The notes under the pieces were generated by a model. It had not been told where the DNA came from. It saw nothing but the letters and a program-made list of their open reading frames with translations, and did no database searches. A DNA stretch of 20,120 nt from a virus, in the IMG/VR virus record IMGVR_UViG_3300030333_001117, positions 1-20,120 of that record, one strand, 5' to 3'. Positions 1 to 9,646 of this stretch are shown here, one piece after another. The translations under genes were made by a program, and so were the position numbers. Positions within the stretch are counted from its first letter, which is position 1. Every line of letters starts with the position of its first letter.

Positions 1-377
1 ATATTGTCCATTCTCGCAAATGCTAGGTTTCTTACTGTGGCAGTTCGTTTTTCTAAGTTAGCAAAATTAGCATTAACATCATGTGCTGCTATTAATGCTT
101 CAGCTGCTTTACCAGGATTACCAGCATAATTATCTAAATCAAATTTAATTCTTTTCCAGGCTGCTGCTTGTTTTAAAGTAACTCTTCTTTTGTGTGCAGC
201 CTCATATTTTAAAATATCAAAAGTTTCTTTTGCAGCTAAAGATTCTGCAGAAGTTTCTGGCATAGATTCTTTATATAACATTTTTAATTGCTGGTAAGTA
301 TCTAAAGCCTTAGCTCCTTGATCCTCAGTTATTAAGCCTTCTTTTTGTCCATTTATAACACAATTACGAAAGGTCAT
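1..377 (-). CDS. Unrecognised protein, N-terminal part (runs off the window)
   Basis: This is the first 125 codons of a gene that continues past base 1. It starts with ATG at 377, overlapping the stop of the upstream 1080-residue gene as ATGA, with GGAAGG a few bases upstream as a plausible ribosome-binding site. The visible part is hydrophilic, rich in Ala, Lys and Glu, and looks mostly alpha-helical; it has no signal peptide or recognisable catalytic motif. Following the internal virion proteins in one tight transcription unit, it is probably another ejected or internal virion protein, perhaps part of what gp16 does in T7. That role is inferred from position only. The reading frame is open to the window edge. 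Confidence 0.8.
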   Translation of the reverse strand, partial: MTFRNCVINGQKEGLITEDQGAKALDTYQQLKMLYKESMPETSAESLAAKETFDILKYEAAHKRRVTLKQAAAWKRIKFDLDNYAGNPGKAAEALIAAHDVNANFANLEKRTATVRNLAFARMDN

Positions 378-3300
378 ACGCAGCCTTCCAATCTTGATAG
401 CATAACTCTATCTTGTTCTATATCATCTAAAATTTGTTTTGGAGATTTGTAATCGGGTACTAATTCCCCGTTTTCGTCTATTCTTTGTCCGATAGGGATT
501 TCTGAAATGCTTTCGCTATCTCTTCTAGTGAACTCCCTGGGTATTCCGCTATCGCCTCGTTCTCCGCCTTCTCGTAATCGAAAATCTTGTTCTTGTAATA
601 AGTCTGATTTGATTTCTTCGATTCTTGGGTTTTGTCCGAAAGCTTGGTTGTTGTCGATTTTTGCGTAGCCATCTGCTTTACCTTTCAATTTATTATACGT
701 CATTATAGGTTTATTGCCAATACTTTTCATGTATCCAGGAGGTATTAATCTACCCGTGGTAATAAATCTGTCATACATTCTTTTTAAAGCATTACTTGGT
801 GTAACATTCATATTAATTAAGTTTATTTCATATCCAGCTTTTTTATATTTATTCATTAATTTAGAAATTTTATTAACGTCTTTGCCTACAGTTGGAATAA
901 TAATATTATAATTTTCTCTTATTGCTACATCCTCTAAAGCAGTAGCAATAGCTTGACTCTCTTTATGTACGGCATTTGCCCCAACTCCATCTTTATATTC
1001 GGGTAAAACTTTTTTAGCCTCATCTGCATCAATAATCATTGAACGAGTTTTTTGTCCTATTCTATTAGCTAGTGTGCTTTTACCACTAGCAGCTGGGCCT
1101 AATATAATGCTTACTTGTTTATTTTTTATTGCGGGATTGGAAGGAGGTATTAATTCATCACCTGTCCATGCTAATTTTTTTGCACTTTCAAATAATCTAG
1201 CTAAAGCCTCACCAGTTCCTTTAACAGTTTCCCCATTAAAATTATATGTTCTATTTAACCAATATTGTTCAGTTCCATAACCTTTTTTTAAATTAGTTAA
1301 AGGAATAGCCATGGCCTCATCTATAGCTTTTGTAACCGCTGGATGAGATTCTATAGTAGCCTCATCTGCTCCTTCATCTATAACCTTCTTTAAATCTTGT
1401 CTTAATTCAATATCTTTTTGAAAAGCCTCTTTTACTTCATGCTGCTCTTTAAATTGTGTTTCTAAACTATCCCCCTGGTTTTTTACTCCAGGGCCATTAA
1501 CGGGATCATCAAAATCATCTAACTGTTTTGGACTAGCTGCGACTTCAAAGCCTTCCTCTTCAACATCAATATTGCGTCTAATTGTGCCAAGGCTATCCCC
1601 GCTGATGTTGCCTCGTTGAATTTCTCGTCTGATAAGGTCAACAAAGTCTTGGGTTGCACCTTTTGAGTTACCTTCTTCTTTAAACCTTTTCGCTGCTTGA
1701 GTGAGGGCATCTGATATATCTCCTTTTCTATTTGCTAAACTCATTATTATTTGAGCTGCCATTGAATCATTAGCAACTCTTTTTTTATTAATATCTGTCT
1801 CTAATTTATTACCTTCCCGTTCTATTCTTGATTGGTTTTGTACTAAATTAGAAAATGTTATTTTATCTCTGCGTAATGTTTTTAAAGCATTATCTAAAAT
1901 AGAGGCTCTTTCTTTAAATAAACTTTCAGTTATTGTTTCTTCACCAAATAATGTCATATTAGTTGTAGGTGTAAATTCTACATTCATAGCTTGTCTAACT
2001 ATAGATTCTGCCTCAGTTACATTTTTTGGATTTGTTTCTTTTAATACTTTTATAATAGCAGAATGCTTATCTACATCTTGAACTAGCCTTCCAATTAAAG
2101 CTGCAAATCTTGGTTCAATAACTCCATTAACTACCATAGCAAAAGCATCATCATTTAGATTAGAAAGTTCCTGGGCCATTCTTACAAAGCTTGACGCTTG
2201 AGGTAAGTTAGCAGCTCTTTCTGGAGACATTCTTAATACTTTAGCAGCATCTATAGGACTACCAGTACCTTCAGCAATATTTTTCATAGCAGCTCTAATC
2301 ATAGCCTCATCAGCCGTTATGCCATCCGCCTCTCTTAAAACAAAACCAATTAATTTTGGATCTTGCCCGTCTTTTTGAGATAAAATTCTTTTGGCTAATC
2401 CTAATCTTTGATGTCCATCAACAACAACTTTTGAACCATCTAATTTTTCATAGACTATTAAAGTACCAGATTTTTCTGCCTCCCATTTCGTAATTCCTTG
2501 TAATCTCTTTGAAACACCAAATTTATCTCCACCTTCTTTGAATTGAAATTGTTTTGCATCTACAACTAAATCACCAGGTCTAAATGTTTGAAAATCATCT
2601 GGAGTTGTATTGTTCATAATCTCATTTATATTTTTTGGAGGTATAATAGTGGATACGGGTTTTTCTGTAATTTCTGCAGCTGCATCATTACCTACCATTC
2701 TTTTAATAGATTCATTTATTCGAGTTGTATGTTCGTGGTTAGCATCTAAAGGATTGTCTGATTTTAAAGGATTAGTATTAGCATCCTCTAAATCCATTTC
2801 AGCTTTAACAATTTCTGCCTCAATTTCTTTTGGTATTTTTACACCAGCATTTCGTAAAGCTCTAAATCCATTAATAGCACCTTTTAATGTTACTCCAAAC
2901 AATGCAGCACCAGCACCAGCTGTACCAGCCTCTAATAAAAATTCTTCCCAGGTATATTCTAATCCTACACTATTTCTCCACTCTGCGACTTGTGCGCTAC
3001 TATAAGTAGTTTCACCAACACCTATCATAAATTCTCTTAATGCTATTCTTAAAAATGAACCTTGAAAGGGAGCTATTAACATTGGTATAGCTATTTCTGG
3101 TGTTCTTGCTATATCCAATACTTCGTGCCTAGCTCCAGCTGCTAAAGAACCCCATATACTATCTTGCCTGGATGTAATATCTTGATATTCTGCTGCTGTA
3201 TTTTGTGCTAATTCTGCAGCTTTAAATTGTAAAAATTCTCTTGTTAGTAAAGGTTGATCTTTATAAATATCTGGATGATCTTTATAAACTTTATTTATTT

Positions 3301-3616
3301 CATCTAAACCTTCTTGAAAATAATTAATAAATTTACCAGAAATAGGATCAATGTTATCAGAAAATTGCATTGAACCTTTATAATATTCATCCCTAGACCA
3401 TCCAAAATTATGAATTTCTATTCCAGTTTTTTGTTTAATGTCTGCTATAATAGGTTCTAAAACTTCGGTAAATGACTCTTCTTTAGAATACATAGAGTCT
3501 ACAAATCTTCCGTATTTCTTTCCTACTTCATAATTTTCGCCAAAATCCGTAAACTCTCCAATAGATGGGGTAAAGTTTACTCGTTGTTTTGCATCTTTAT
3601 TACTTTCAAAAAACAT
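374..3616 (-). CDS. Large multidomain 'polyvalent'-type virion protein: DdrB-like ParB domain plus zeta-toxin-like kinase
   Basis: A 1080-residue protein. Residues 1-150 are helical and unrecognised. Residues 160-255 are hydrophobic and Gly/Ala-rich, like membrane-active parts of ejection proteins. Residues about 344-480 resemble the ParB/sulfiredoxin-like fold, with the motif VVVDGHQRLGLAKR (397-410) typical of the DdrB-ParB family. Residues about 835-985 resemble a zeta-toxin/PezT-type P-loop kinase: Walker A GPAASGKST (840-848), an acidic IIDADE (861-866) after strand 2, and an Arg-rich RMYDRFITTGRLIPP near 946-960. Known polyvalent proteins of phages and plasmids combine such modules and enter the host with the DNA to counter defences. 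The gene occupies the slot of T7 gene 16, right after the gp15-like gene (TAATG overlap), so I infer it is packaged and injected. I see no lytic transglycosylase motif. Two small ORFs overprint this gene (separate entries). Coding certain; domains likely; ejection inferred. Confidence 0.85.
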   Translation of the reverse strand: MFFESNKDAKQRVNFTPSIGEFTDFGENYEVGKKYGRFVDSMYSKEESFTEVLEPIIADIKQKTGIEIHNFGWSRDEYYKGSMQFSDNIDPISGKFINYFQEGLDEINKVYKDHPDIYKDQPLLTREFLQFKAAELAQNTAAEYQDITSRQDSIWGSLAAGARHEVLDIARTPEIAIPMLIAPFQGSFLRIALREFMIGVGETTYSSAQVAEWRNSVGLEYTWEEFLLEAGTAGAGAALFGVTLKGAINGFRALRNAGVKIPKEIEAEIVKAEMDLEDANTNPLKSDNPLDANHEHTTRINESIKRMVGNDAAAEITEKPVSTIIPPKNINEIMNNTTPDDFQTFRPGDLVVDAKQFQFKEGGDKFGVSKRLQGITKWEAEKSGTLIVYEKLDGSKVVVDGHQRLGLAKRILSQKDGQDPKLIGFVLREADGITADEAMIRAAMKNIAEGTGSPIDAAKVLRMSPERAANLPQASSFVRMAQELSNLNDDAFAMVVNGVIEPRFAALIGRLVQDVDKHSAIIKVLKETNPKNVTEAESIVRQAMNVEFTPTTNMTLFGEETITESLFKERASILDNALKTLRRDKITFSNLVQNQSRIEREGNKLETDINKKRVANDSMAAQIIMSLANRKGDISDALTQAAKRFKEEGNSKGATQDFVDLIRREIQRGNISGDSLGTIRRNIDVEEEGFEVAASPKQLDDFDDPVNGPGVKNQGDSLETQFKEQHEVKEAFQKDIELRQDLKKVIDEGADEATIESHPAVTKAIDEAMAIPLTNLKKGYGTEQYWLNRTYNFNGETVKGTGEALARLFESAKKLAWTGDELIPPSNPAIKNKQVSIILGPAASGKSTLANRIGQKTRSMIIDADEAKKVLPEYKDGVGANAVHKESQAIATALEDVAIRENYNIIIPTVGKDVNKISKLMNKYKKAGYEINLINMNVTPSNALKRMYDRFITTGRLIPPGYMKSIGNKPIMTYNKLKGKADGYAKIDNNQAFGQNPRIEEIKSDLLQEQDFRLREGGERGDSGIPREFTRRDSESISEIPIGQRIDENGELVPDYKSPKQILDDIEQDRVMLSRLEGCV
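478..672 (-). CDS. Candidate overprinted small gene (64 aa) inside the polyvalent gene
   Basis: An ATG ORF of 64 codons in the frame whose codons begin at the second base of the host gene's codons, overlapping residues about 982-1046, just after the kinase domain. AAAGG lies 8 bases before the ATG. The product is hydrophilic, starting MATQKST and ending LEEIAKAFQKSLSDKE, and looks like an ordinary soluble helical protein. The strongest hint is that the host gene's codons change where the ORF begins: upstream it uses AT-rich codons, then TAC, ATC, GAC, AAC, TTC, GGC and AGC appear together through the overlap and a little beyond. In this register the host's third base is the small ORF's second base, so such a shift is what dual coding would produce. 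No homolog recognised. An alternative is a recombined patch with different codon use. Confidence 0.4.
   Translation of the reverse strand: MATQKSTTTKLSDKTQESKKSNQTYYKNKIFDYEKAENEAIAEYPGSSLEEIAKAFQKSLSDKE
1519..1710 (-). CDS. Candidate overprinted small gene (63 aa) inside the polyvalent gene
   Basis: A 63-codon ATG ORF in the same shifted register as the one at 478-672, overlapping host residues about 636-700, a linker between the ParB-like and kinase domains. A good Shine-Dalgarno site, AAGGAG, ends 9 bases before the ATG. The product is basic (many Lys, including a Lys-rich N-terminal third) with a helical Ala/Leu-rich middle (TSAGIALAQLDAILM). In the host frame, codons switch abruptly at the ORF start from AT-ending ones to GCC, CTC, GAC, ATC, GGC, AGC, GGG, CGC and GTC, then return towards the usual AT-rich use after the stop. 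No family recognised. It could be a real overlapping gene, or a segment acquired from elsewhere. Confidence 0.4.
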   Translation of the reverse strand: MPSLKQRKGLKKKVTQKVQPKTLLTLSDEKFNEATSAGIALAQLDAILMLKRKALKSQLVQNS

Positions 3617-6507
3617 TATCTATTCCAAGAATTTGAATTAGCAGCTCTTCTTTTAGCTACTGTTTCTTGTAATCCTCTTAAATTTAACAATATAGGATCA
3701 CCATTAGCGTCTAACAAATATTGTGGATCAGATGAAAATGCTGGATAAAAACTTATCATTACTTCATCTGCATTTGCATTTGTAAAATGAAATCTCTCTT
3801 TTAACTTATTAAACTTTTCACCATCTAAATCTGTTGTATCAAATTGAACAACTTGGCCATTTCTTACATAATGTAATCTTTGATTATTGTTATTAGCTAA
3901 GAAATCAACTTCATTCATATCCTCAATTAATCTAGGAAAACCCTCAGCCCATATATTATTAGGGATCATTAAGTTATGTTCAGTACCACTTTGCTCTGGA
4001 TCAAATTCAATAATGCCTCCATATTTTTCACCATTAATATAAATAGCTCCCGCAACTTCTTGAAAAGTTTGTTCAAAAAGTTCTGGATCAAATTCATCTT
4101 TTTTTAAATTTATATGTCTTTGCTTATAAGCAGATTTCGTTACTTCTTGGATGTTGCCTATTAAATTTCCTGGGAAATAAGTACCTCCTATATAGGTCAT
4201 TATTTTTTCGTTCATCTCAGAAGAAGTTGTACCAGCCTCAATAAAAAATTCTTTGACTTGTTCTTTATCATATTCCAATCCTTGTAAAGAATCTTTTACA
4301 ATGTCTTGATTTCCGTAAAAACTTAATGTTCCTAAATGAGCAAGGTTTTGGCCTATTTTCCCATTACTATGTATTTGTTCCCAAACAGCACTTGTATTTA
4401 TGTCAAAATTTTCTCTTACTCTATTTATTAAAACAATTTTATTATTTAGGTCAGCTCGGCTAAAAGCATTAATTAAAGCAGTAGATTCATCTTGAGTTAA
4501 ATATTGTGGAGTTATATTCATTTCAGCACTCCATCCATTTACCCATTCAATTCTATTTTTAACGGATTGTGCATCCATGTTTCCATCATCTGTAAATGCT
4601 ATTTCTGGAAAATCCTCTCTAGTCTTTTTGGCCCATCCAATAGGATCAGATTCTAAAGCATTAATCATATTCTTTTTTAAAGATTGTAAACCTTCTACTA
4701 ATTTTAAAGCATCCTCATCAGCACCTTTTTTCTGTAAAACTTTATCAATACTGTCTATAACTCTACCTAATTCTATAACAGACATATCCTCTGCTGCATC
4801 TAATTGGGTTACTTGAGATATAACAGTTGCTAATTTATCTCTTATTTCGTCATCTTTATAACGAGTTAATATATCTGAAAGTTCTTTTTGTAATTCATCA
4901 TTTAATGGATAACCTTCACTTAAAACTTCCATCATTTCGGTTAATTTAGCATCCTCATCAGCTCTTTCAGTTTCTTTTCTATTTAAAATATTTTGTAAAT
5001 TTATTAATAAATCTTGTTGATACTCGCTAACTTCATCTGAATTATCTATAGACGCTTGTATATCGTTAATTTCTCCTTGCAAAGCCTCTGCACTCATATC
5101 ATTAGCTCTTTGCAAAACTTTAGTAGAGTTAATTAGCATAGTTGTTTTTTCAATCATTTCCTGGTCGCCAACTTCTTCTGCATCTGCTAGTAATTTTTCT
5201 AAATGATTAAATCCAGGATTTCTTCCTTTACTTACTATTTTTTCTATTGAAGAAAATCTATTACTTAAATCAGCCTCTTCATCTACTCTATCACTTCTTA
5301 TGTCTGCCAATATTTTTTCTAAATTTTCTACAATTTCTTTTTGTTCTGGTAATACTTCTTCAGAGGCAGTTTCAGTTTTTTGCATCTCATTAATAATTAT
5401 TTGTAACTCTTCTGGACTTTTTAACCTGGCTGGTCTGTAATAATTTTCATAATTATATTCTAATTGTTCTATTGCCATATAAAGATCACCATAACCCGCT
5501 GCCTCTGCCTCTTTTTTTAGTTCCGTTAATTGAGAACCAGGATTCAATCCATCAACAACAATTTCTTCAATTTTGCTAAACTTGCCATCTAAAGATTTGT
5601 GCAACGCTGTAGTTCTTTTATCAATACTGTTTATTTTAGTATTCATTTCTCCATATAAAGTTTTTTGTGAGGCCTCATCTAAACCACTTGCCAATCCTTG
5701 TCTTTTGTCAAAATCATTTTTAAATTCTTCAGCAAAAGCAATTTTATCCGTAGCTCTTTCAAACCCTCCACGGACTCTTGCTTTATTTGCTCTAATTCTC
5801 ATATTAATTACTGCAGCAGAAATTTCTTTTTGAGTTAAATCTGAGCCTTCCATAAAACCCATTAAACTTGCTATTTCAGCATTTAAGTTATCATTAAATT
5901 GTTCTAAAGTTATATTTTGTCTACCCATTAACTCTATATTATTTAAACGTTCATCTACGCCTAAATATGTAGCTGTTCTCAAATCGTCTTTTTGGTCTTT
6001 CATCCAATCCTCTGTATAATCTAAATACACAGAATTTGATAACCTGGTTAATGTTTCATTCAAGGTAGCTGCAGATAAAGAATCCATATTACCTAAAGCA
6101 TTAGAAAATCCAGCATTTATATTATCTAATTTAGTTCTTAATAATTCTGGATCAGCCTTATTATTTTTCCACTCTAATAAAACCTTACCCATTTCATTTC
6201 GGGCCTCAGTTTCAATTTGTGCAGAGGCAACTTTTACAGCTGCTCCATAAGCATACTGGTCAAAAACAGTATCCTGGCCCTTGGATTGTTTCATAGCTTT
6301 TTGAGGATTCATAGCTCCATATTGTTGTCCTTCTAGTTTTGCTTTTTGTTCTAATTTACCGAATGCAAAATTCATTATTTGATTGGCACTTTGAGCCATA
6401 GCAGACGCACCTTTAGCTTGTTCTCTTAAATCAGCTCTATCAACATTTACGGGCCTGGCTAAACTTGCCCTATTACTTGAATCATAAGTTGGGTATCTTT
6501 GTGCCAT
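3616..6507 (-). CDS. Internal virion / ejection protein, T7 gp15-like by position
   Basis: A 963-residue, largely hydrophilic and acidic, alpha-helical protein with no signal peptide. It starts directly after the stop of the gp14-like gene (no gap), and its TAA shares one base with the next ATG. Residues 309-613 hold three degenerate tandem repeats of about 100 residues (separate entry). The flanking region 1-300 is helical and Ala/Gln/Lys-rich; 620-963 looks more globular. No catalytic motif is evident. In T7-like phages the long protein after gp14 is gp15, which forms part of the internal core and is ejected to build the periplasmic conduit for DNA entry. That role is inferred from gene order, length and composition, because internal core proteins diverge too quickly for reading by eye to establish homology. 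Confidence 0.75.
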   Translation of the reverse strand: MAQRYPTYDSSNRASLARPVNVDRADLREQAKGASAMAQSANQIMNFAFGKLEQKAKLEGQQYGAMNPQKAMKQSKGQDTVFDQYAYGAAVKVASAQIETEARNEMGKVLLEWKNNKADPELLRTKLDNINAGFSNALGNMDSLSAATLNETLTRLSNSVYLDYTEDWMKDQKDDLRTATYLGVDERLNNIELMGRQNITLEQFNDNLNAEIASLMGFMEGSDLTQKEISAAVINMRIRANKARVRGGFERATDKIAFAEEFKNDFDKRQGLASGLDEASQKTLYGEMNTKINSIDKRTTALHKSLDGKFSKIEEIVVDGLNPGSQLTELKKEAEAAGYGDLYMAIEQLEYNYENYYRPARLKSPEELQIIINEMQKTETASEEVLPEQKEIVENLEKILADIRSDRVDEEADLSNRFSSIEKIVSKGRNPGFNHLEKLLADAEEVGDQEMIEKTTMLINSTKVLQRANDMSAEALQGEINDIQASIDNSDEVSEYQQDLLINLQNILNRKETERADEDAKLTEMMEVLSEGYPLNDELQKELSDILTRYKDDEIRDKLATVISQVTQLDAAEDMSVIELGRVIDSIDKVLQKKGADEDALKLVEGLQSLKKNMINALESDPIGWAKKTREDFPEIAFTDDGNMDAQSVKNRIEWVNGWSAEMNITPQYLTQDESTALINAFSRADLNNKIVLINRVRENFDINTSAVWEQIHSNGKIGQNLAHLGTLSFYGNQDIVKDSLQGLEYDKEQVKEFFIEAGTTSSEMNEKIMTYIGGTYFPGNLIGNIQEVTKSAYKQRHINLKKDEFDPELFEQTFQEVAGAIYINGEKYGGIIEFDPEQSGTEHNLMIPNNIWAEGFPRLIEDMNEVDFLANNNNQRLHYVRNGQVVQFDTTDLDGEKFNKLKERFHFTNANADEVMISFYPAFSSDPQYLLDANGDPILLNLRGLQETVAKRRAANSNSWNR
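4669..5583 (-). repeat. Three tandem protein repeats of about 100 residues within the gp15-like gene
   Basis: The repeats are visible at protein level only: residues 309-412, 417-520 and 521-613 (about 5272-5583, 4948-5259 and 4669-4947). Repeats 1 and 2 open alike, KFSKIEEIVVDGLNPG and RFSSIEKIVSKGRNPG; repeat 3 opens KLTEMMEVLSEGYP. A second shared block reads KSPEELQIIINEMQ, MSAEALQGEINDIQ and MSVIELGRVIDSID. Units 1 and 2 end with an acidic VDEEA / ADEDA, and unit 3 has GADEDA near its end. The pattern suggests old internal duplications building a long helical rod. Confidence 0.65.
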
Positions 6508-7041
6508 CTAACCTCTCCATCCAGTAGGGCCACCAAACATAGGGCCAGATGGTAAAGTATAAGTTGCCCCTGGTGATCCAGTTGTTCCAGCAAAAGAACT
6601 TTTACCACCGATTGAACCATATTTTAAAGCTGCACCACCGACAGTTCCTATTGCTCCAAATACTCCTTGTTTAGCTGCAGATTTACCAGCTGCTTTATAA
6701 ATATTTGATTGGAATGCTCCAGTTTTTCTCCTGGTATCAGCACTCATTCTGTGAATATTAAAATCTGTATAACCTTCATTTAATACTTGATCTTGTAAAT
6801 TTCCGATAGAACCAGCAAAAGGATTAAGATTTCCCGCAGCAGCTCTAGCCGTAATAGTAGCCATTGTTTTCAATGTCTTTTTTAAGGCATTAACTCCTTG
6901 CTGTTCATATGCTATGGCATCATTTTCGGCCTGGATATTATTCCAAACAGCTTGAGATTCATACATTGCTTGTTGTGCTTTTCCCGCTTGTATTTGTCCA
7001 AATGCGGAAACTGCTGTTGCTGCTATTGCTACTACTTCCAT
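6508..7041 (-). CDS. Internal virion protein, T7 gp14-like
   Basis: A 177-residue protein. It has a small-residue hydrophobic N-terminus (MEVVAIAATAVSAFGQIQAG) followed by a Gln/Ala-rich helix ending near residue 60. The rest is Gly/Ala-rich, with a hydrophobic GVFGAIGTVGGAALKYG stretch at about 126-142. This organisation is typical of gp14-like internal core proteins, which enter the host outer membrane during ejection. It begins one base after the nozzle gene's stop and ends directly against the next start, placing it in the tail/ejection unit. Family assignment rests on length, the N-terminal pattern and the position between tail tubular protein B and the gp15-like gene. Confidence 0.75.
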   Translation of the reverse strand: MEVVAIAATAVSAFGQIQAGKAQQAMYESQAVWNNIQAENDAIAYEQQGVNALKKTLKTMATITARAAAGNLNPFAGSIGNLQDQVLNEGYTDFNIHRMSADTRRKTGAFQSNIYKAAGKSAAKQGVFGAIGTVGGAALKYGSIGGKSSFAGTTGSPGATYTLPSGPMFGGPTGWRG

Positions 7042-7042
7042 T

Positions 7043-9025
7043 TTATTGTCCTAACGATACTAAATAGTCTAGTGATAAAATAGTTAATGGTAATGGTACA
7101 CTTTGACTAATGGTTATTGAGCCTTCATAATCAAACCCAAGCAGAGGCCCTATTTGCTTGGAACCCGTATAAGATTGAACTGGTGTGTCTAATATATCCT
7201 CACCAAATTGCCTAAATGGTACAAGTTGTCCATTTACTGTCATAGCTTTAGATTGATAAACTTCAGCATTAACTTGGACAATTCGTTTTTTAAATCCTTT
7301 AACTGTGCCAGAAGGTAATCGTGGTTCAACGGGCATAGTTTTAATATTTATTGTAAATGGTATTCCTAATTCATAATTACTTGTAGAAGCTCTAGTCATA
7401 GTAACCTCGCCACTACCATTTGTAGTTTGTTGAGCCTCTACATTTCCATCATTTAAAATATCAACTGTGGTACTAGGTAAATGTGCGGCAGTTGCCGTAG
7501 CAGTTGTAGCACTTACATATACAGCTGCATCTGTATGCAAACTTGAATCAAATATTTCTACAAAATATTTAGTTGCACTATTTATAGTTCTTTTTACTAC
7601 AGTATAAGTATCATCAACATCTACACCGATAGCTTGAAAAGTTCCATCAGTTGTAAATTTAGAAGGAGCTACAACATTTTGTGAACGTAAAATAGAATAA
7701 ACCGATAATGAACCATCTCCAGAATTGACAATAAATAATCTATCAGATTCTTCTGTGGATGTTGCTCTTCTCATAGCTATATCTGAAGGGTTGTTCAATA
7801 AATGTGAGGACATTAAACTTATAGTAGATGTAGTATAAGCTTGTTCTGCATCTGTAAATATCATTTCATTTAAAGATTTGCCAGAACGTTGTATAAATAT
7901 AGTTCCCGAATCTAAACCAGCAACGGGTACACCTTCTTTAATTCCATTTCTTGTAGCAATTTTAACCATAAAATTACCTGGTGTAATAGGATCATTAATT
8001 GATTGAGGAACATAAAATTCTCCTCCCGTAGTAAATACTTGTAAATCTCTGCCAGAAAATATATTGACAATAGCATTTAAAGAGTCTGTAACAACTTCCG
8101 CATCTAAAGCCTCATCATCTAAACCTTCTCCAACTTCAAAATTAAAATAATCAGCTACCCTGGAACCCCATATATTTGTAGGTAAAGATTTAGAACCACC
8201 AAAAAACAAACGACTTTCATGGAAAGTACATGAAGTAGGCCATCCTTTAGTTGAACTCCAGGCTGCCTCATAACCAGATTCTAATTCCCAATCTCCAGAG
8301 GCTACAGCTGCTAAATCAAATAAATTTACTACTACTCGGCATTTAATACTTGTTGAGCTAATAAACTCAATAACTCTTAATCTACCAAAATTAGAATTTA
8401 TATTAATATATTGATTAACATAGCCAGAAGTAAACACGCCACTACTTGCTGTTAAAGTAATGTTACCACTTGTTGCTGAAGGTGTAATACTTGCCGAAGG
8501 ATTACTTACTGATAAAGTAAAAGCTGCAACGGGTATATTACTAAAAGATATATAAGAAGCTGTCCAGGTAGCGTCATTTGCTCCTCTTACTATTCTTACG
8601 GGTTGCAAATCATTATGTGTAAAAATAATAGTATCACCAAATTGTGCATAATTAATATTAGGTATTACGGCAGAAGTTAAAGCTGTTACACCAAAATAAT
8701 CATTACCCGATCCATTAATATTTGTTATTAAAGCCTTGTTTTTAAAGATATAAATTCTTTGATTAACCATAACTAACATATAAGAATCAGAAGTAGAATA
8801 CTCAAAAGGAATACATCTAATACCATCTTGAGGATTTGCAGCACTTGGTAATTCTGCTAAATATTTTAATCCATCTCTTCTTTTAATTCCGCCTTGAGGT
8901 TGAATAAAAACATTATTAGCTGTTTGTAAAGCATTGTAATATTGCTGTAAGTCTATTCTTGATTTTAATAAAGGATCAAGTTCACCGACACTAAAATTTG
9001 TTTGTATTTGTACTTGTCTTGACAT
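7043..9025 (-). CDS. Tail tubular protein B (nozzle), T7 gp12-like
   Basis: A 660-residue protein with the characteristic start of podoviral nozzle proteins: an early NFSVGELDP (residues 10-18) followed by YYNALQTANNVFIQPQGGIKRRDG (about 29-52, read in two parts). The rest is beta-rich with many Ser/Thr and Gly, as expected for a propeller-type tail tube. A dimer or hexamer of such proteins forms the lower tail through which DNA leaves the virion, and fibres or internal proteins dock on it. It directly follows the tail tubular protein A gene with no intergenic base and is followed by the internal protein genes, the usual T7-like order. Length is a little below that of T7 gp12 (about 790). Confidence 0.9.
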   Translation of the reverse strand: MSRQVQIQTNFSVGELDPLLKSRIDLQQYYNALQTANNVFIQPQGGIKRRDGLKYLAELPSAANPQDGIRCIPFEYSTSDSYMLVMVNQRIYIFKNKALITNINGSGNDYFGVTALTSAVIPNINYAQFGDTIIFTHNDLQPVRIVRGANDATWTASYISFSNIPVAAFTLSVSNPSASITPSATSGNITLTASSGVFTSGYVNQYININSNFGRLRVIEFISSTSIKCRVVVNLFDLAAVASGDWELESGYEAAWSSTKGWPTSCTFHESRLFFGGSKSLPTNIWGSRVADYFNFEVGEGLDDEALDAEVVTDSLNAIVNIFSGRDLQVFTTGGEFYVPQSINDPITPGNFMVKIATRNGIKEGVPVAGLDSGTIFIQRSGKSLNEMIFTDAEQAYTTSTISLMSSHLLNNPSDIAMRRATSTEESDRLFIVNSGDGSLSVYSILRSQNVVAPSKFTTDGTFQAIGVDVDDTYTVVKRTINSATKYFVEIFDSSLHTDAAVYVSATTATATAAHLPSTTVDILNDGNVEAQQTTNGSGEVTMTRASTSNYELGIPFTINIKTMPVEPRLPSGTVKGFKKRIVQVNAEVYQSKAMTVNGQLVPFRQFGEDILDTPVQSYTGSKQIGPLLGFDYEGSITISQSVPLPLTILSLDYLVSLGQ

Positions 9026-9646
9026 TTAATACCTCACAGATATTAAGTCAAAATCCTCTATTACTTGGTTAGTAGTATTTTGACCATCAGTTATACAAGC
9101 TTGTCTAAAAGCTCCGCCTCTATTATTTTCCGAAGGTAAACCAACTGCCATTTGCCTATAATATTCAGCTTTAGTTATTTGATCTGTTACGGGTTCAGCA
9201 ATATGCCAAGCAATCCAATATTTAAGTAACTGAATAAAATAAGTAGGTAATACAGCCTCAGAAGGTTTAAACTGATAATCAACATAAACTGTTTCAAAAC
9301 TTGTTAATAATTTATCCTCGTATATTTCCCAGCCTTCGTTCCTGGGCCTTGCTCCATCAGAACTACTGGTAAATACAGCACGAACTCCAGAACCAATACT
9401 ATCAGATGGTAATTGATATTCATATTTCCATTCTGTAACGGGAGTATTTACTGTCCTGGCTAATTGAATTTTTTTATAAGAAAACGTCCAAGGATACATA
9501 CCCAAAACAGTATCATATAAATCGTCATATAATCTATCACACACTTGTGCTGAATCAGTACCCTCAGAAAAGGAAGAAAGGGGGGCGGCCCCTAGCATTA
9601 TCAATGCGTCTGAACATATAGATAATTTTGTATCGCCAGAGGCCAT
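9026..9646 (-). CDS. Tail tubular protein A (head-tail adaptor), T7 gp11-like
   Basis: A 206-residue protein starting at ATG 9646, with AGGAGG just upstream. The N-terminal pattern, KLSICSDALIMLGAAPLSS followed by a helix ending in LYDDLYDTVLGMYPWTFSYK, is the hallmark of gp11-like adaptors that form a ring between portal and nozzle. Length matches the family (about 190-210). The codons for LGAAPLSS form an unusually GC-rich stretch near 9580-9593, where GGGGC and GCCCC arms face each other. Its neighbours, a small capsid-associated protein upstream and the nozzle downstream, fit this role. Confidence 0.92.
   Translation of the reverse strand: MASGDTKLSICSDALIMLGAAPLSSFSEGTDSAQVCDRLYDDLYDTVLGMYPWTFSYKKIQLARTVNTPVTEWKYEYQLPSDSIGSGVRAVFTSSSDGARPRNEGWEIYEDKLLTSFETVYVDYQFKPSEAVLPTYFIQLLKYWIAWHIAEPVTDQITKAEYYRQMAVGLPSENNRGGAFRQACITDGQNTTNQVIEDFDLISVRY

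Follow-up and report, generated by a model that had tools for sequence, protein, structure and literature searches.

Evidence for two overprinted genes, each linked to its own effector domain, within a phage polyvalent-protein gene

Results

Nested reading frames behind two effector domains

The 20,120-base IMG/VR virus contig IMGVR_UViG_3300030333_001117 (a marine phage; hereafter the window) carries a large gene for a polyvalent protein with a ParB-like domain and a zeta-toxin-type kinase domain (the host gene; Table 1). Nested in the +1 frame of this gene lie two small open reading frames (ORFs), P2 right behind the kinase and P3 behind the ParB-like domain, and comparison of sequences indicates that both are almost certainly real, unannotated overprinted genes, because of their occurrence in relatives, shuffle controls, loci in which the nested gene straddles the host stop, and the constraint seen in the nested frame. 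For P2 taken by itself, a genuine coding function is highly probable on these comparative grounds. The two nested proteins, when compared in sequence, are unrelated.

The features from which the original prediction set out are all present in the window: P2 is an ATG-initiated ORF of 64 codons with AAAGG eight bases upstream, begins at position 2 of a host codon and shares its register with the ORF at 1519-1710. The Shine-Dalgarno-like site adds little and we dropped it as evidence, since the host peptide forces such sites (it is imposed in 82% of synonymous shuffles across relatives). The shift in host codon usage that had been described is real and limited to the two patches: 20 of 64 host codons end in C in the P2 patch and 16 of 63 in the P3 patch, against at most 7 of 64 in the other 64-codon windows of the gene (mean 5.8%), and a sliding-window survey of codon use along the gene found no such shift without a shifted ORF. 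The enrichment of NNC and NNA host codons arises because the host wobble base falls in the middle of each nested codon, where Thr, Ser, Lys, Gln, Asp and Tyr are selected. It had also been argued that two such frames in one gene are hard to credit to chance. For P2 in the window alone, an equally long +1 ORF appears in 1.4% of synonymous shuffles of the host (p = 0.014), which is only moderately unlikely and made relatives necessary; comparison with these takes the case far beyond chance.

Each nested gene accompanies one domain

Scanning IMG/VR with P2 returned two contigs that carry it at the corresponding nested position of a homologous host (66% and 46% identity), and the same two contigs also bear P3 (92% and 48% identity). 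P2 homologues occupy the same nested position in relatives whose hosts are 48-64% identical. Profiles of the kinase-tail and ParB regions, used as scan queries, yielded 160 loci (numbered with the prefix L below), with 122 distinct hosts including that of the window. In 71 of the 76 hosts having the kinase-tail motif the nested ATG falls on the same Asp-Gly codons (GAT-G), and the ORF that begins there mostly spans about 60-67 codons. P2 was detected in 82 of the 86 distinct zeta-kinase hosts (E value 1e-3), and a hidden Markov model of P3 built from five seeds detected it in 96 of 96 ParB hosts; both occur in phase +1 only, never in +2. The linkage follows the domain: P2 occurs without P3 in 26 hosts that have the kinase alone, and P3 without P2 in 36 that have the ParB-like domain alone. 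Hardly any relative retains the host protein without the frame: two of the four kinase hosts that gave no P2 match are cut by a contig end (L134, L201), and the other two (L149, L163) still show, by eye, an open +1 ORF of divergent sequence at this place. The idea that the kinase is flanked by nested genes is correct in that one precedes and one follows it, but the preceding gene, P3, belongs to the ParB-like domain and not to the kinase.

In the 2.39 Mb examined, 127 P2 and 172 P3 matches overlap their domain ORF in phase +1 (the loci being partly redundant); free-standing copies of either were absent from this sequence, which is a biased sample because the loci were gathered through these domains or terminase. 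The kinase genes with P2 sit in differing gene neighbourhoods, and P2 accompanies the kinase in ParB-less architectures and in phages with other neighbours (L136, L166, L132, L174). Among 14 kinase relatives on bacterial or archaeal genome contigs, a locus in a Hyphomicrobiaceae metagenome-assembled genome has P2 (E value 1.7e-13), one in a Rhodobacter metagenome-assembled genome gives a weak match, and the clostridial relatives have none.

The second frame is constrained as protein

Since a conserved host protein could by itself make the +1 frame look conserved, we shuffled the hosts synonymously. At a threshold of at least 40 bits, P2 was recovered in none of 1220 shuffles versus 65 of 122 real hosts, and P3 in 1 of 1220 versus 96 of 122. 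This test is partly circular, and the P2 model was therefore cross-trained: built from 18 kinase-only hosts, it recognised 35 of 104 others at 30 bits or more, versus 1 of 1040 shuffles, and scored the window's P2 at 41 bits. By both routes the second frame is conserved beyond what the host explains. Host-synonymous differences are likewise reduced. In pairwise comparison they amount to 0.32 in the P2 overlap versus 0.52 in the kinase, the overlap having the smaller value in 210 of 239 pairs; the P3 region shows about 0.09, versus roughly 0.3-0.4 in most other stretches. With its presence in every ParB-domain host and synonymous change at most about a third of that elsewhere, P3 is even better supported than P2.

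The distribution of changes over codon positions divides P2 in two. Its first 28 codons follow the constraint of the host, with host position 3 the most variable (0.169), and in its C-terminal part host position 1, the nested wobble base, varies most (0.147 versus 0.083 and 0.089); the nested-wobble signature is thus confined to the C-terminal half of P2. The P3 core shows the same nested constraint (0.167, 0.067 and 0.072, host position 1 being highest). From these position-wise patterns, the C-terminal core of P2, with the motif FDY(D/E).AE..A...SP.......L, is the selected part, and the N-terminal half, pliable, rich in Ser, Thr and Lys and mostly dictated in sequence by the host protein, a tolerated linker. 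The motif of P3 is LSDEQLNEAIS.G..LAMLDALSML.RKA. The dual-coding comparison supports the nested genes first proposed from the window alone, in that the +1 frame is conserved as protein and host-synonymous change is lowered in both overlaps.

P2 can extend past the kinase stop

Comparison also shows that P2 can straddle the end of its host. In L136, L137, L156, L159, L165, L166 and L172 the kinase has an earlier stop, past which the P2 frame runs on for 82-103 nucleotides, and in L136 and L137 the post-stop part alone matches the engulfed P2 family (E value 1.3e-9). A scan with the P2 of L136 recovered L136 and L137 and nothing else. The start can move as well: in L156 it lies two codons away at another ATG, and in L169 (3668-5041) and L173 the usual start is lost (GAC, with an early +1 stop) and a downstream ATG precedes the same core. 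The straddling loci are possibly intermediates of engulfment, and their occurrence side by side with fully engulfed ones suggests how nesting arises.

The kinase genes at L136 (1998-3525), L166 (3644-4940) and L159 (1871-4907), each with P2 across the kinase stop, lie in distinct phage contexts, that of L166 adjoining a serine-recombinase-like gene. For P3, an unannotated +1 ORF resembling it is present at the end of the ParB-like region of the host coding sequence (2894-5272) of L256, Dunaliella viridis virus SI2 (HQ332136.1), a public deposited phage-like genome. L087 (1417-4617) is a kinase-less ParB-domain host in which P3 is present and P2 absent; its C-terminal part resembles, by eye, a RelA/SpoT-like nucleotidyltransferase.

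The host protein and database searches

The Pfam match and the P-loop place the host domain ahead of P2 among the zeta-toxin kinases. The label ParB-like derives from a VDGHQR motif and from a halovirus annotation (the HCTV-5 record reads 'zeta toxin and ParB nuclease domain protein'); the host region itself has no Pfam match. The genes preceding the host gene (6508-9646, minus strand) are ordered like podovirus tail-tube and internal virion proteins, which suggests that the host protein is virion-borne and ejected.

A single-protein scan with the whole host gave no match, nor did tblastn against 50,697 phage records with P2, its L136 and L139 versions, or a P3 protein. Searches of the nested families against Pfam and PHROG, and for P2 also against PDB, gave scattered weak, unrelated matches (best Pfam E value 0.0079, an RHS repeat; one weak PDB match), and titles and abstracts on overprinted phage genes, nested antitoxins and polyvalent proteins held nothing on these nested genes. 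Both gene families are apparently undescribed in the libraries and literature searched.

Table 1 Features of the host gene and its nested genes in the window
Feature	Coordinates	Strand	Remarks
Host gene	374..3616	-	1080-residue polyvalent protein; virion-internal/ejected slot suggested by gene order
ParB-like domain region	1667..2635	-	host residues 328-650; PHROG 10691, E value 8.5e-60
P3, nested +1-frame gene	1519..1710	-	63 residues; behind ParB-like domain
Zeta-toxin-type kinase domain	722..1126	-	host residues 831-965; Pfam PF06414, E value 6.6e-17; P-loop GPAASGKST
AAAGG, Shine-Dalgarno-like site of P2	681..685	-	8 nucleotides ahead of ATG; weak evidence
P2, nested +1-frame gene	478..672	-	64 residues; ATG start, stop 480-478; behind zeta-kinase domain
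P2 conserved core	481..582	-	from residue 31, FDY..AE...A; at or beyond kinase stop in L136, L159, L166 and similar
Next gene	3..377	-	ATG overlaps host stop; host extends beyond P2 to a normal end

Discussion

The explanation we favour, and consider probable as a whole, is that P2 is a separately translated gene belonging to the kinase module, with an inhibitor or immunity protein as its favoured role. Ribosomes on the same mRNA would initiate at the ATG contained in the Asp-Gly codons of the host, right behind the kinase, and produce the 64-residue P2. P2 and the zeta-type kinase form one module that moves together between protein architectures, and P2 would most likely act on the kinase. 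In the role that we favour, it would hold the kinase inactive within the cell that makes the large protein, up to the ejection of that protein into another cell; P3 would do likewise for the ParB-like domain. What the comparisons show is a conserved +1 coding frame that stays with its domain and can straddle the host stop; translation, kinase binding, inhibition and ejection are inferred, and we hold these steps with differing firmness. Because each nested protein belongs to the effector domain that it follows, each is a probable cognate partner, and the conclusion that P2 acts on or with the kinase seems to us reasonably likely; that it does so as an inhibitor or immunity protein is a tentative assignment by analogy. 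A nested antidote travelling with its effector domain would best fit what is described for epsilon/zeta systems, phage polymorphic toxins and polyvalent proteins. A broader and rather doubtful proposal is that injected phage effectors hold antidotes within their own coding sequence, each domain (kinase, ParB-like nuclease) bringing its +1-frame immunity gene, so that domain and antidote would be inseparable under domain shuffling.

Several observations weigh against this explanation. P3 occupies a parallel place at a different domain, which would also suit a shared non-inhibitory role as packaging tag, chaperone or virion part. Neither P2 nor P3 resembles epsilon antitoxins or any other known family in Pfam or PHROG, nor P2 any in PDB, and for want of any member like a known antitoxin we do not class the nested genes as such, even though P2 shows the steady linkage to a zeta-type kinase (82 of 86 hosts) expected of one. 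The match of the post-stop part is marginal for L159 and not significant in the other straddling loci. Many loci, finally, are near-identical or related, so that the counts given above do not represent independent events.

P3, a protein unrelated in sequence to P2, is likewise placed behind a domain, though a different one, as if domains merely acquired small proteins at their ends, and the host gene lies among probable virion-internal proteins (by gene order). Both would be expected if P2 were a real gene with no kinase partner, its small product serving the virion, packaging or host takeover and lying at this spot by coincidence. We regard this as a possible but unlikely alternative, as P2 stays with the kinase in architectures that lack ParB and in other neighbourhoods and was never met without it in the sequence examined. 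Programmed frameshifting into the +1 frame, which would give the kinase an alternative tail and make no separate protein, could account for P2 beginning directly behind the kinase domain in just that frame; it is very improbable, although no search for slippery sites was made, given that in 67 of 71 cases the ATG follows a +1 stop by no more than eight codons, that the ATG is kept, and that L169 and L173 start well downstream, after such a stop.

Two further explanations dispense with a second protein. An RNA or DNA element would also suppress change at host-synonymous sites, but the positions left free to vary are the nested wobble bases in the cores of P2 and P3, divergent hosts keep the +1 frame open for about 60-67 codons, and the motif of the nested protein runs past the host stop; these observations largely refute the element, to which we give slightly less credence than to frameshifting. 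The original prediction had itself raised the alternative that recombination brought in both patches together with a foreign codon usage, their open frames being by-products. The sharp codon shift limited to two patches is what this would produce, yet the nested ORFs recur at the same domain boundaries in more than 100 divergent hosts, shuffled host codons fail to recreate the nested protein profiles, and selection on nested residues explains the codons; the comparative data thus refute recombination, the least credible of the explanations considered.

If P2 and P3 are indeed partners of the domains that they follow, the overlap would be a case of a putative toxin physically bound to its putative antidote, and it predicts specific partners for the zeta-type kinases and ParB-like nucleases of polyvalent proteins. 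The finding also shows that entire families can go unnoticed by gene callers when effector genes conceal them. Overlapping genes are known in phages, among them Rz1 within Rz, and E within D and K across A/C in phiX174; these resemble P2 and P3 in giving small proteins read in a second frame within some other phage gene. However, they are mostly lysis genes, whereas P2 and P3 are unrelated families, each of which keeps to a single effector domain across protein architectures, a linkage that holds across more than 100 environmental phage sequences. No arrangement of this kind, with two deeply conserved, unrelated genes nested in a single effector gene, turned up in Pfam, PHROGs or the annotated records examined.

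The polyvalent proteins of phages and conjugative elements, which are thought to be delivered with the phage DNA, similarly combine ParB-like nucleases and zeta-like kinases in large, presumably injected proteins, and a word search of their description turned up neither overlapping nor nested genes (PMC5512222). In the MuF polymorphic toxins of phages the usual layout is a phage protein that ends in an effector domain, directly followed by a small ORF proposed as an immunity gene (PMC5576092); here, in contrast, the small ORF overlaps the effector gene and in most relatives is engulfed by it entirely, and two occur in one gene. The closest functional parallel suggested by the kinase is the epsilon/zeta family (PezAT, and ng-epsilon1/ng-zeta1 of gonococci), in which a zeta-type P-loop kinase that phosphorylates UDP-sugar cell-wall precursors is restrained by a small epsilon antitoxin (PMC5923241). 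There the pair is bicistronic, whereas P2, read in a different frame, either sits within the 3' end of the kinase gene or spans it, and its inhibitory role is putative; since ng-epsilon1 binds as an extended chain (PMC5923241), a short, flexible partner of the P2 type is plausible.
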